Part shown: positions 12,103-52,019 of the stretch, in pieces
How the letters are laid out: the number at the start of each line of letters is the position of its first letter
Position numbering within the stretch: the first letter of the stretch is position 1
From: Halorubrum ruber
GTDB lineage: Archaea > Halobacteriota > Halobacteria > Halobacteriales > Haloferacaceae
Assembly (NCBI RefSeq): GCF_018228765.1
Contig: NZ_CP073695.1
Coordinates: 558,001 to 622,000, forward strand
DNA length: 64,000 nucleotides
Direction of reading: 5' to 3'
The notes under the pieces: model-generated
Databases searched by the model: none
The model's input: the letters and a program-made list of their open reading frames with translations, nothing else
What the model was told of the DNA's origin: nothing
Translations under genes and position numbers: made by a program

Positions 12103-12975
12103 ATGGACTGGAAGACAGACTGGGGACTCCGTGGACGGATGGGGTTCACGATGTTCCTCCTCTTCGCCCTCTACGTCGTGTTCATCGGTGTCCTGATCGA
12201 GGTGTTCAACGTCGGGATCATCTTCACGCTCGCGATGTTCGGCGCGTTCTCGCTCGCGCAGTACTTCTTCAGCGACAAGCTGGCGCTGCGGAGCATGGGC
12301 GCCCGGGAAGTGAGCGCCGACGAGTACCCGGACCTCCACCGCCGGATCGAGCGGCTGAGCCAGCAGGCCGACCTCCCGAAGCCGACGGTCGCGGTCGCGG
12401 ACACGCAGGTGCCGAACGCGTTCGCGACCGGCCGGAACAAGAAGAACGCCACCGTCGCGGTGACCACCGGGCTGCTCCAGGCGCTCGACGAGGACGAGCT
12501 CGACGGCGTGCTCGCCCACGAGCTCGCCCACGTCAAGAACCGCGACGTGATGGTGATGACCATCGCGTCGTTCCTCTCCACTATCGCCTTCTTCATCGTC
12601 CGGTGGGGGTGGCTGTTCAGCGGCGACAACCGGCAGGGCGCGCCCGTCATCGTGGCGATCCTCGTGTCGATCGTGGTGTGGGTGATCTCGTTCCTGCTCA
12701 TCCGCGCGCTCTCGCGCTACCGCGAGTACTCCGCCGACCGCGGCGCGGCGCTCATCACCGGACAGCCCGGCGCGCTCGCCTCGGCGCTGATGACGATTGA
12801 CGGCCGGATGGACAAGGTGCCCAAAGAGGACCTCCGCGAGGAGGCGGAGATGAACGCGTTCTTCATCATCCCGATCAAGGCCGGCTTCGTCGGCAAGATC
12901 GCCTCGACGCACCCCTCGACGGAGAACCGCATCGAGAAGCTCCGTGAGTTGGAAAAGGAGATGGAGACGGCTTGA
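12103..12975 (+). CDS. htpX: membrane zinc metalloprotease HtpX (M48)
   Basis: 290 residues: two N-terminal membrane helices (about 14-56), the zinc motif HELAH (H139, E140, H143), two more helices (about 160-205) and the third ligand E208 in YREYSADRG. HtpX degrades misfolded membrane proteins and is stress-related. Size and topology are typical. The next 700 bases downstream hold repeats only, then the RNase P RNA gene on the other strand. Confidence 0.94.
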   Translation: MDWKTDWGLRGRMGFTMFLLFALYVVFIGVLIEVFNVGIIFTLAMFGAFSLAQYFFSDKLALRSMGAREVSADEYPDLHRRIERLSQQADLPKPTVAVADTQVPNAFATGRNKKNATVAVTTGLLQALDEDELDGVLAHELAHVKNRDVMVMTIASFLSTIAFFIVRWGWLFSGDNRQGAPVIVAILVSIVVWVISFLLIRALSRYREYSADRGAALITGQPGALASALMTIDGRMDKVPKEDLREEAEMNAFFIIPIKAGFVGKIASTHPSTENRIEKLRELEKEMETA

Positions 12976-13004
12976 GACGGATCTGAATCGGAATTTTCGA
13001 TTGG

Positions 13005-13403
13005 TTATTTATAAGTCGTTGAGCGCAGTTTGGCGACGAATATCGCCGAAGTCCCAGCCGCTCGTTTATAAATCGTTGCGGGCAGGTCGGTGACGAACAC
13101 CGCCGAAGCCACAGTCGCTCGTTTATAAATCGTTGCGGGCAGGTCGGTGACGAACACCGCCGAAGCCACAGTCGCTCGTTTATAAATCGTTGCGGGCAGG
13201 TCGGTGACGAACACCGCCGAAGCCACAGTCGCTCGTTTATAAATCGTTGCGGGCAGGTCGGTGACGAACACCGCCGAAGCCACAGTCGCTCGTTTATAAA
13301 TCGTTGCGGGCAGGTCGGTGACGAACACCGCCGAAGCCACAGTCGCTCGTTTATAAATCGTTGCGGGCAGGTCGGTGACGAACACCGCCGAAGCCCCAGC
13401 CGG
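13005..13403 (-). repeat. 57-bp tandem array, about seven units
   Basis: Seven head-to-tail 57-base units start at about 13005, 13062, 13119, 13176, 13233, 13290 and 13347. The middle five are essentially identical; the first is diverged and the last runs into element copy A. Each unit carries TTTATAA at the same phase, a variable-looking centre and GAAGCC-CAG. Read on the minus strand the units resemble the tail of element copies B, D and E, so the array is an expansion of that tail. The 19-residue repeat frame read on the minus strand is a by-product of 57 being divisible by three. Confidence 0.9.
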
Positions 13404-13656
13404 GAGGGCGGCGCACGCTCGCTGCGCTCCTCACTCGTTCGCTCCGCTCACTCGTTGCGGTGCTTGCGTCGCCTGCGCCGCCCTCCCGGCTGCCCCTTCG
13501 AGTCCCGCCCCGCACCGCTCCGCACAGCACCTCACGCCTCCCCAGCCTCGTCAGTCGCCGTCGCTTCGCTCCGGCGACTGACTCCCTCGCGCGTGCTGGC
13601 TCGCGACCGCCTTCGGCGGCCGCTCGCAGGCACGCGCCACCGCCGTTTATTTATAA
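13388..13656 (-). repeat. structured intergenic element, copy A
   Basis: This fills the gap before the RNase P RNA gene. On the minus strand it begins at TTATAAATAAA, then a long stem-loop (GCGCGTGC pairing with GCACGCGC), a second perfect 11-bp stem (plus 13550-13560 with 13572-13582), the conserved block GAGGCTGGGGAGGCGTGAGG, the block GGGGCGGGACTCGAAGGGGC, and a closing pair GCCGGGAGG / CCTCCCGGC followed by TGGGGCTTCGG. No coding potential is credible. Copies B, C, D and E elsewhere share the same blocks. Confidence 0.85.
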
Positions 13657-13681: not shown

Positions 13682-14017
13682 GGTCGGTCTGAGCGGACTG
13701 AGGGGAGTAAGCCCCCTTCGGTTCGTCCCGACATTCGGCTGAGCGTCCGCGCCGTGGCCGGACTACCTTGTGGCGCGGACTTGCACCGGCGAGGATTCGC
13801 CGTTCCATCCGTTCCCGCCCGTCGGCCCTCGTCGGGTTAACTCCCTCCCCTTGCGGGTCGGTTCGCTCGACTCATCGGTCGAGGCGGGGGGTGTCGTTGC
13901 TGTTCCAGAGCCAGCCGTCTCCGACTCCGGGCGTGTGCCCGGTCGCCCGTCCGGCCGGTGGGGGACTTTCCTCATGCCAAGGGCACGGGAGTCGGGCTCC
14001 CTCTGTCCGGTCCGTCC
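13682..14017 (-). ncRNA. rnpB: RNase P RNA, archaeal type A
   Basis: On the minus strand the conserved core GAGGAAAGTCCCC, the GGTGCAAGTCCG region and the 3' core GGGGGCTTACTCCCC are all in order. The 5' segment GGACGGACCGGAC pairs with 3' GTCCGCTCAGACCGACC to form P1, which sets the approximate ends. The transcript would be about 336 nucleotides, near the short end for haloarchaea, so the exact termini are uncertain. It is the catalytic RNA that trims the 5' leader of pre-tRNAs. A protein subunit gene (Rpp29 type) is in this window at 56821. An AT-richer stretch (CGCTTATTCG on the minus strand, near 14030-14041) may be its TATA box. Confidence 0.9.
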
Positions 14018-25758: not shown

Positions 25759-26077
25759 TTTATAAGGACCTGTTCGCGGATCGTCGACGAACACTCCCGA
25801 AGCCCCAGCCGGGAGGGCGGCGCACGCTCGCTGTGCTCCTCGTCACTCGCTACGCTCGTTCCTGCGGTGCTTGCGTCGCCTGCGCCGCCCTCCCGGCTGC
25901 CCCTTCGAGTCCCGCCCCGCACGGCACCGCCCCGCACCTCACGCCTCCCCAGCCTCGCCGCTCGCTCGGGGCTCCCTTCGGTCGCCCTCGTCGCTCGCGG
26001 CGTCCCTCGCGCGTGCTCCTCGCGGCCGCCGAGGGCGGCCGCTCGGAGGCACGCGCCACCGCCGTTCATTTATAAAT
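25759..26077 (-). repeat. structured intergenic element, copy B
   Basis: It fills most of the gap between dodecin and alaX. On the minus strand it starts at ATTTATAAAT, continues with GCGCGTGC / GCACGCGC around a perfect inner stem GCGGCCGCC / GGCGGCCGC, then a CGCCGC / GCGGCG stem with an enlarged loop, the conserved GAGGCTGGGG and GGGGCGGGACTC blocks, the closing GCCGGGAGG / CCTCCCGGC pair, and one 57-base tail module ending at TTATAAAC. Open frames read through it are not credible genes. Confidence 0.85.
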
Positions 26078-31583: not shown

Positions 31584-31648
31584 GTGCCTTTCCGAGACGA
31601 GTACGGCATCGTTTCTGGTGGAAACTCGCTGATCATCGCGAACCACTC

Positions 31649-32005
31649 CGAAGCCCCAGCCGGGAGGCGGGCGCACGCTCGCTGTCGCCCGAAAATCGGC
31701 GATTTTCGGGATGACGAGAGAGCTTTGCTCTCTCGAACCACGCTCCTCGTCGCTCGTTTCACTCGCTCCTGCGGTGCTTACGTCGTCATCAGAACGCTCT
31801 GCGTTCTGATTGGCTCACGAGAGCTTCGCTCTCGTGAACGCCTGCGCCCGCTTCCCGGCTGCCCCTTCGAGTCCCACCCCGCACAGCACCTCACGCCTCC
31901 CCAGCCTCGTCAGTCGGTCTCCGCTTCGCTCCGACCGACTGACTCCCTCGCGCGTGCTGGCTCGCGGCCGCCTTCGGCGGCACGCTCGCAGGCACGCGCC
32001 ACCGT
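31649..32005 (-). repeat. structured intergenic element, copy C, with extra hairpins
   Basis: It fills the space between the convergent panB and CPBP protease genes. It has the GCCGGGAGG and CCCGGCTG ends, the conserved blocks and a perfect 11-bp stem (31909-31919 with 31933-31943). Four perfect hairpins not found in other copies lie inside it at 31688-31710, 31715-31735, 31788-31810 and 31816-31836. The TTATAA motifs seen at the edges of other copies are missing here. Confidence 0.82.
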
Positions 32006-39250: not shown

Positions 39251-39655
39251 GGTTGTTTATACGTGATCGGTGCTGCCGCGGTGAACGGCTTCAAAGCCCA
39301 GTCGCTTGCTTATAAATGGTCAACTGTGGATCGACCACGAACGGCTTCAAAGCCCCAGCCGGGAGGACTCGATGCGCTCGCTGCGGTCCTCGGTCGGTCG
39401 CTATCGCTCCCTCCCTGCGGTCCTTGCGTCGCGCGTCTTCGTCCTCCCGGCAGCGTGGCGCGACGCGCCACGGGCAGCCGGCGGCGAAGCCGCCGGCGAC
39501 TGCCCCTTTGAGTCCCGCCCCGCACAGAGACCGCACCTCACGCCTCCCCAGCCTCGCCGCTCGCTTCGCTCGCGGCGTCCCTCGCGGGCTGGCTCGCGGC
39601 CTCCGCTTCGCTCCGGCCGCTCGCAGGCGCGCCACCGCACCGGCTGTTTATAAAC
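39230..39655 (-). repeat. structured intergenic element, copy D, with two tail modules
   Basis: On the minus strand it runs from TTTATAAAC (39647-39655) through a CGCCGC / GCGGCG stem, GAGGCTGGGGAGGCGTGAGG, GGGGCGGGACTC and the closing GGGAGG / CCTCCC ends to two 57-base tail modules with TATA-like motifs near 39310 and 39257. Two perfect hairpins unique to this copy are at 39455-39471 and 39477-39497. The rest of the 880-base gap (38996-39877) holds the AT-rich patch and the promoter of the next gene. Confidence 0.82.
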
Positions 39656-49093: not shown

Positions 49094-49445
49094 CTTATAA
49101 ATGACAGGCGGTGGCGCGTGCCTGCGAGCGGCCGACAGGCCGCGAGCCAGCACGCGCGAGGGAGTCGGCCGACCGTAGGGAGGCCGACGAGGCTGGGGAG
49201 GTGTGAGGTGCTGTGCGGCGCGGTGCGGGGCGGGACTCAAAGGGGCAGCCGGGAGGACGAAGCACGACGACGCAAGGACCGGAACGAGGGAGCGGTAGCG
49301 ACCGAGTGAGGACCGCAGCGAGTCGCGCGAGTCCTCCCGGCTGGGGCTTTGGAGGTGTTCGTCGCCGGGTCAGTATCAACAACTTATAAGCGAGCGGCTG
49401 GGGCTTTAGAAGTGTTCGCCGCCGATCTGCCGTCCATTTATAAAT
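49094..49445 (+). repeat. structured intergenic element, copy E, with two tail modules
   Basis: This is the only copy whose first TATA-like motif (CTTATAAAT, 49094-49102) is on the plus strand. It then has GGTGGCGCGTGCCTGCGAGC, a stem GTCGGCC / GGCCGAC (49164-49170 with 49182-49188), the GAGGCTGGGGAGGTGTGAGG and GGGGCGGGACTCAAAGGGGC blocks, the closing GCCGGGAGG / CCTCCCGGC pair and two tail modules ending at ATTTATAAAT. It fills the space between the aldo-keto reductase and tRNA-Gly. Confidence 0.85.
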
Positions 49446-51152: not shown

Positions 51153-52019
51153 ATGCGTACCGAAGACGGACTCACGATATGTGTTCCGTCTTCGCTCGTC
51201 CGGGAAGCCGAGGACGACCGCGAGGCGACTCGCAAACTCGGCTACGTCGCCCGTGCGGCGGCGGTGTTCCGGGCGGATCGGCTCGTCGTCTTCCCCGACG
51301 CGGAAGGCGACGGTCGACGGGGCGGGGAGTACGTCCGTACCGTGCTGGGGTACGCCGCGACGCCGCCGGAGCTCCGGAAGGATCTCTGGGGGCAACGCGA
51401 CGAGCTCCGGTACGTCGGCGTACTCCCCCCGCTCCGCGTGCCGTGGCGGACCGGCTCGACCCCTAGCGGGGGAGAGTCGAAAACACAGGGACTCGTGACC
51501 GAGGTCGGACCTGAAGGCCGCGTCCGGGTCAATTCCCCGCTGCGGGAACACCCGATCTCCCTGCTCGTTCCCTCCGGAATGGAGGTCGAGCAGGGGGAGC
51601 GCGTCACCATCAGGGTCTCTTCGAGAGAACCGGTCCGCGCCCGCATCGCCGGGAAGCCCGAGGAGGGCTTCCAGGTCGTGGCCGCGGACCTGTCGGAAGC
51701 GCTCGCCGGCGACGGAGTGGCCGTCGCGACGTCGCGACACGGAGAAGCACTCTCCGTCTCGCGGCTCGGCGACCTCGTCTCGGACGCCCGCGAGGCCGGC
51801 GGTTACACCGTCGCCTTCGGGGCGCCCGAGCGGGGGCTTCCGGAGATGCTCGGGCTTTCGCCCGACCGCATTCGGGCGGCCGTCGCCGACGGCCGCTCGG
51901 TCGAACCCGATCCGGGGTTCGACCTCTGGCTGAACACGATCCCGGCACAGGCGAGCGAGGTCGTCCGGACGGAGGAGGCTCTGTTCGCGACCCTCGGCTC
52001 GCTCACACTCACGGAGTAA
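51153..52019 (+). CDS. SPOUT-family RNA methyltransferase (DUF171-like)
   Basis: 288 residues from the ATG at 51153; a GTG at 51117 in frame is less likely because the promoter sits just before it. It has an OB-like insert (TQGLVTEVGPEGRVRVN...) inside a SPOUT domain and ends GFDLWLNTIPAQASEVVRTEEAL. This family is encoded ahead of the uL3 gene in archaea and is thought to methylate rRNA uridine. Position at the operon head supports a ribosome role. Confidence 0.85.
   Translation: MRTEDGLTICVPSSLVREAEDDREATRKLGYVARAAAVFRADRLVVFPDAEGDGRRGGEYVRTVLGYAATPPELRKDLWGQRDELRYVGVLPPLRVPWRTGSTPSGGESKTQGLVTEVGPEGRVRVNSPLREHPISLLVPSGMEVEQGERVTIRVSSREPVRARIAGKPEEGFQVVAADLSEALAGDGVAVATSRHGEALSVSRLGDLVSDAREAGGYTVAFGAPERGLPEMLGLSPDRIRAAVADGRSVEPDPGFDLWLNTIPAQASEVVRTEEALFATLGSLTLTE

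Follow-up and report, generated by a model that had tools for sequence, protein, structure and literature searches.

The hairpin-bearing element that occurs five times in the window (the whole stretch of 64,000 nucleotides that was analysed, positions 558001-622000 of the 3.02-Mb chromosome of Halorubrum ruber) belongs to a family of non-coding, intergenic, dispersed repeats of about 250 bases, with approximately 160 to 195 copies on this chromosome (one contig). Its helices P1, P2, HP2 and P3 remain paired although their sequences change, and the hairpins appear to behave as cassettes that are replaced whole between copies. As the overall explanation, to which we give an even chance, we propose a haloarchaeal family of structured non-coding elements in which the folded sense strand is selected, hairpin cassettes move between copies and the sites are fixed.

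Copies were counted over the whole genome as exact CCCCAGCCTC-N(15-44)-TCCCTCGC matches (strict) or as occurrences of box GAGGCTGGGGAGGYGTGAGG with at most 2 mismatches (relaxed). The strict pattern was found 86 times on one strand and 75 times on the other (161 in all), with 0 matches for the reversed-pattern control, and the relaxed search gave 195. Copies A-E of the window are thus members of a family of at least 161 strict and 195 relaxed copies. Spacing of the copies along the chromosome was near-random (CV 0.91) and the idea of regular spacing was dropped. The features in the window were the following.

12951-13387, no strand assigned: tandem array of 57-bp units adjoining copy A; each unit carries TTTATAAA and repeats the 3' end of the element (GGCTTCGG)
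13388-13643, minus strand: element copy A, flanked by a Peptidase_M48 gene and the gene for RNase P RNA
13388-13502, minus strand: long helix P3 of copy A, basal pairing CGAAG/CTTCG
13550-13582, minus strand: HP2 of copy A, sense GTCAGTCGCCGGAGCGAAGCGACGGCGACTGAC, arms GTCAGTCGCCG/CGGCGACTGAC
13591-13643, minus strand: P1-P2 helices of copy A, the 5' end of the element in sense
25797-26062, minus strand: element copy B, upstream of an alanyl-tRNA-synthetase-like (tRNA_SAD) gene
25957-26002, minus strand: HP2 of copy B, CGCCGCGAGCGACGAGGGCGACCGAAGGGAGCCCCGAGCGAGCGGC, beginning CGCCGC/GCGGCG
31648-32005, minus strand: element copy C, between convergent panB and an Rce1-like gene
31684-31741, minus strand: type II double-hairpin insert, nested in P3 of copy C
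31785-31841, minus strand: type III double-hairpin insert, nested in P3 of copy C
31909-31943, minus strand: HP2 of copy C, arms GTCAGTCGGTC/GACCGACTGAC
39326-39638, minus strand: element copy D, its P3 unmatched by the search pattern
39556-39577, minus strand: HP2 of copy D, CGCCGCGAGCGAAGCGAGCGGC, beginning CGCCGC/GCGGCG
49108-49352, plus strand: element copy E, between an aldo/keto reductase gene and tRNA-Gly
49164-49188, plus strand: HP2 of copy E, GTCGGCCGACCGTAGGGAGGCCGAC, arms GTCGGCC/GGCCGAC

For analysis, 167 elements were extracted from this genome and 120 from other species. Read in sense (the minus strand for copies A-D, plus for E), the element consists of P1/P2, GCGAGGGA, HP2, GAGGCTGGGGAGGYGTGAGG, a G-rich stretch, CTCRAAGGGGCAG, the long P3 and CTGGGGCTTYGG. 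P1 (GGCGCGUGC/GCACGCGC) encloses hairpin P2, and HP2, directly following box GCGAGGGA, is the second stem that the original prediction had described; every stem sequence given there for copies A-E was located as described. In RNA letters, the box after HP2 reads GAGGCUGGGGAGGYGUGAGG and is followed by a variable G-rich stretch, the box before P3 reads CUCRAAGGGGCAG and the one after it CUGGGGCUUYGG. Any likeness of the conserved boxes to a tRNA T-arm or SD was dropped as coincidental. Folding of the sense RNA of copy A yielded P1, P2, HP2 and P3 (MFE -152 kcal/mol, z -6.5), the antisense fold being weaker (MFE -124 kcal/mol, z -5.3). Alignment of the element termini showed no terminal inverted repeats, and at about 250 bp the non-coding element is too short to encode a transposase.

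The original prediction held that the second stem keeps its pairing although its sequence differs, and took an absence of covariation among aligned copies as the result that would speak against it. Covariation was found, and pairing is retained not only in HP2 but also in P1, P2 and P3. HP2 occurs as 98 distinct sequences among the 167 copies of this genome, and its outer stem averages 8.1 bp compared with 2.0 in shuffles (175 distinct hairpins, own and other-species sets), with mismatches at about 1% of positions (G.U 12, A.C 7, against 1404 Watson-Crick pairs). Among the 39 distinct HP2 sequences of equal length, 98.0% of cells were paired (shuffled, 86.9 ± 0.8) and both sides had changed in 65 cells (shuffled, 15.7 ± 5.8), counts that do not represent independent events, as the copies are related and exchange sequence. 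When the partners were slid against each other, pairing fell to 20-54%. Following background correction of the mutual information, the six variable paired column pairs of GTC-type HP2 were the top six of 153. In P3, many positions of which hold three to four Watson-Crick types, the six highest-ranking column pairs likewise were all paired positions. The basal pairs of P3, lying more than 100 nt apart, also covary, with CAAAG/CTTTG in 194 elements, CGAAG/CTTCG in 43 and one intermediate.

The folding strand could be named from three asymmetries. A C(GNA)G loop lies on the sense strand in 140 of the 175 distinct HP2 hairpins and the inverse, CTNCG, in 8; tandem G.A steps are placed on the sense strand too, as GA/GA and GGA/GGA internal loops. 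In distinct stems G.U exceeds A.C in HP2 (12:7), P2 (10:1) and P3 (22:9), giving 44:17 in total (p=0.0007), or 33:17 (p=0.03) when one P3 position is left out; these are non-independent events and strand-biased C-to-T mutation could add to the excess. In one common P1 subtype a G.U pair is fixed. The loops, the G.A steps and the wobble excess all point to the reverse complement of the strand written in the original prediction, that is, minus sense for copies A-D. The GAAGC-type loops reported there are present, but for A-D they are found on the complement of the strand written. Selection on the folded strand is likely. As to the proposal that folded RNA or a cruciform is selected, a folded single strand is favoured by the G.U:A.C ratio, the GNA loops and the basal P3 pair sets, whereas a symmetric double-stranded cruciform is weakened, because neither a cruciform nor palindrome repair would give a strand asymmetry in loops and wobbles. 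RNA and single-stranded DNA would both do so, and the selected strand may be either.

Many elements contain nested double hairpins of 49-60 nt, of at least five types, with near-perfect stems of arbitrary sequence and, unlike HP2, loops in both orientations (GAA/TTC, GTA/TAC). Such loops are expected from palindrome inversion, and together with the stems they would suit maintenance at the DNA level only, in which hairpin-templated repair or template switching keeps palindromes perfect and the folded strand is unselected. Under this process, however, G.U and A.C should be equally frequent and the loops should show no strand bias, whereas 44:17 and, for HP2, 140:8 were observed, and pairs more than 100 nt apart at the base of P3 still covary; as an account of the family it is therefore unlikely. 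Mitochondrial double-hairpin or repetitive hairpin elements, including the sponge RHE, are GC-rich mobile double hairpins with variable stems that occur as solitary inserts in organelle genomes; the nested inserts resemble them in form. Arrays of units of about 57 bp, which repeat the 3' end of the element and carry TTTATAAA, often lie downstream of it in sense.

Between species, most element sites are retained. Both flanks were syntenic with an element of this genome, in the same orientation, for 56 of the 120 other-species elements, which were drawn by exact 28-mer and are not an unbiased sample; the series for the RNase P site and site B, chosen independently of element sequence, agree with this. 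Site B is filled in the same orientation and at a similar distance in most Halorubrum species examined. In the RNase P series, one clade has retained the element at about 100 nt from the 3' end of RNase P; in a second clade it is inverted, and it is absent from some species. One site is empty in a 96% relative and filled in others. The spacers around the empty sites that were compared had diverged too far to define insertion junctions or target duplication. The length of the RNase P RNA matches in Halorubrum (window 13696-14007 and loci L271-L300) varied between about 312 and 421 nt, commonly by increments of about 20 nt, which suggests variable helices or hairpin insertions within the gene. 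In two species (L284, L293) the RNase P 3' spacer contained an apparent IS1341/TnpB-type element end, and this spacer may be an insertion hotspot.

The hairpins do not follow the sites. HP2 was common to only 1 of 55 ortholog pairs, and identities in orthologous and random pairs, respectively, were 0.743 and 0.733 for HP1, 0.702 and 0.661 for HP2, 0.780 and 0.780 for the core and 0.700 and 0.700 for P3. Within the genome, modules are unlinked (correlations 0.03-0.05); copies with identical HP2 were no closer to each other in HP1 (identity 0.761 versus 0.757), and their HP1 and flanks were unrelated. Hairpins are also common to unrelated loci and species. Single pairs illustrate the independence of the modules: one (X87/O21) has an unusual P1-P2 in common but not HP2, and another (X88/O20) an unusual P3 but neither HP1 nor HP2. 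Turnover is not instantaneous, since at site C the HP2 of a 94% relative is identical to that of window copy C. In this relative (L313), a clean 49-nt double-hairpin insertion with no obvious target duplication interrupts the GCGAGGGA box beside the identical HP2, an ortholog being uninterrupted there, and the array holds one extra unit of about 57 nt; unit number likewise differs between the site C orthologs L311 and L313. Inheritance of the basal P3 type by locus, though striking at the RNase P site, did not reach significance when 40 ortholog pairs were taken together (p=0.34).

Since modules are unlinked and those at orthologous sites are close to random, the differences between the window copies are mainly whole-hairpin replacement. 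The compensatory change that had been read from these copies is thus borne out as far as pairing is concerned, but mostly it is not site-by-site substitution, and with hairpins exchanged whole, five copies could not have shown compensation. Near-zero linkage and the occurrence of the same hairpins at unrelated loci and in different species could also mean that pairing is kept merely through whole-cassette hitch-hiking, with single hairpins unselected. Unselected cassettes would gather mismatches, however, and HP2 outer stems are mismatched at only about 1% while the cassette pool has diverged at many pair positions, so that we consider this most improbable. The simplest mechanism for hairpin movement is probably gene conversion, because conserved boxes flank each hairpin and efficient conversion has been described in polyploid Haloferax volcanii (PMC8223754, PMC11276520). 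In the explanation that we favour, the folded sense strand (either non-coding RNA or an intermediate of single-stranded DNA), whatever cellular role it may have, would be selected for pairing, GNA loops and conserved unpaired boxes, leaving helix sequence free to vary. The boxes on either side of each hairpin would act as homology arms, and gene conversion in the polyploid cell would be the likeliest route by which hairpins move among some 170 copies. Genomic sites would stay fixed between species and hairpins would turn over independently as cassettes.

Gene context was determined from gene calls made by a simple GC3 method. Elements were flanked by 60 convergent, 72 tandem and 22 divergent gene pairs (6, 53 and 6 in the whole window), so that convergent spacers are preferred: they hold 39% of copies, while in the window about 9% of neighbouring gene pairs are convergent. 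Copies adjoin tRNA and RNase P genes. Both observations are compatible with a cis-acting 3'-UTR or terminator element that acts as RNA on adjacent transcripts. The element showed no preferred orientation with respect to the genes beside it and stands at 3' ends either way round: the left gene read into it in sense in 100 of 161 cases and the right gene in antisense in 99 of 159. This independence argues against a 3'-UTR role, as do the occurrence of both orientations downstream of RNase P and of some copies in 5' regions (copy B), and we rate such a role as very unlikely. About half of the copies have a TATA-like box (TTATA) 17-21 nt before GGCGCG. An own promoter was rejected, as the usual archaeal spacing from this box would place the start inside P1, not at an RNA 5' end.

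Convergent spacers would also suit a transposase-dependent mobile family, PATE- or REP-like, whose hairpins are recognised as single-stranded DNA in transposition; pairing and strand bias would then be explained with no cellular function. Such a family would be in keeping with the many copies, with the patchy presence and uneven copy number outside the genus, with insertions beside RNase P that face opposite ways in different Halorubrum clades, with the site empty in the 96% relative yet filled in others, and with the one Y1 transposase in the genome. Positions are mostly conserved across the genus, however, so recent transposition must be rare, and the cassette pattern itself requires recombination between copies. 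In a search for near-terminal palindromes like IS605-type ends, the single Y1 locus of the genome (L371, IS605-type) gave no BLAST match at E<=1 to the 167 elements, which counts against the mobile family, and IS605 parentage was rejected. On balance we regard transposase-dependent mobility as possible yet rather doubtful.

The palindrome-associated transposable elements (PATEs) and SMRs of Haloquadratum walsbyi are short, transposase-free, palindromic and high-copy, often with smaller nested repeats, and PATEs have no terminal inverted repeats, insert without duplicating their target and carry near-terminal palindromes that resemble IS605 ends (PMC3119063). The present element is like them in being short, transposase-free, palindromic and high-copy, with nested repeats and without terminal inverted repeats. 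It differs from PATEs in having no detectable similarity to the IS605 locus of its own genome; it also has four helices and boxes that are conserved, its sites are for the most part fixed and its hairpin cassettes shuffle. Bacterial REP/BIME are extragenic palindromic modules in mosaics, present in tens to hundreds of copies, with enrichment at 3' ends and in convergent spacers and compensatory stem changes. Dispersed extragenic imperfect palindromes in mosaics are likewise found here. Unlike REP/BIME, the modules stand in one fixed order within about 250 bp, and it is the hairpins that are hypervariable and the boxes between them that are conserved. No cognate RAYT gene (Y1 family) with the repeat on its flanks was found, the single Y1 locus being without similarity to the element. 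REPs have been reported in archaea (RepRanger paper, PMC12306157).

The GAGGCTGGGGAGGYGTGAGG box was present in 64 of 292 sampled Halobacteria-class genomes (control counts 0 or 1). All 35 Halorubrum genomes counted contain the family, with 15-195 copies each, and named matches were Halorubrum in nearly all cases. Outside this genus presence is patchy and copy number variable, with scattered genera, a few of them above 100 copies. In other genera the head (P1/P2, GCGAGGGA, HP2, GAGGCTGGGGAGG) is kept and the 3' part differs. Other haloarchaeal families (L301-L307) showed this head joined to different 3' parts, for example ending in GGCAGTAGCTAGC or containing GTGGACTGAAAGGGCGAGGCGCGCTCGCG. No copy was found on viruses in the phage collection searched, and five haloarchaeal plasmids carry partial matches. 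Covarying helices that surround conserved unpaired boxes, with a wobble asymmetry naming one strand (G.U 44, A.C 17), liken the element to structured non-coding RNAs such as those in Rfam. It is matched by no Rfam family, whether the window was searched at the gathering threshold, copy E at E<=10 or six loci at E<=0.5, and no paper with its conserved sequence strings was found in the literature searched. An L4-Archaeoglobi ribosomal protein leader (RF03135, 74.5 bits) was matched at window positions 51511-51613, in a haloarchaeon. A tentative wider reading, possible but short of an even chance, is a structured-RNA class, new and spread broadly among haloarchaea, with up to about 195 genomic copies, a common head domain, lineage-specific 3' domains and helices that evolve by cassette swaps between copies.

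The family, a candidate structured-element family absent from Rfam, offers a natural case in which helix sequences have been almost fully turned over with fold and genomic address unchanged, the paired changes being supplied by recombination between copies and not by point mutation alone. Covariation tests usually assume independent substitutions, and the family therefore warns that cassette exchange can carry covariation. Gene conversion within the genomes of polyploid archaea could also be followed with it, as a dense and testable marker.
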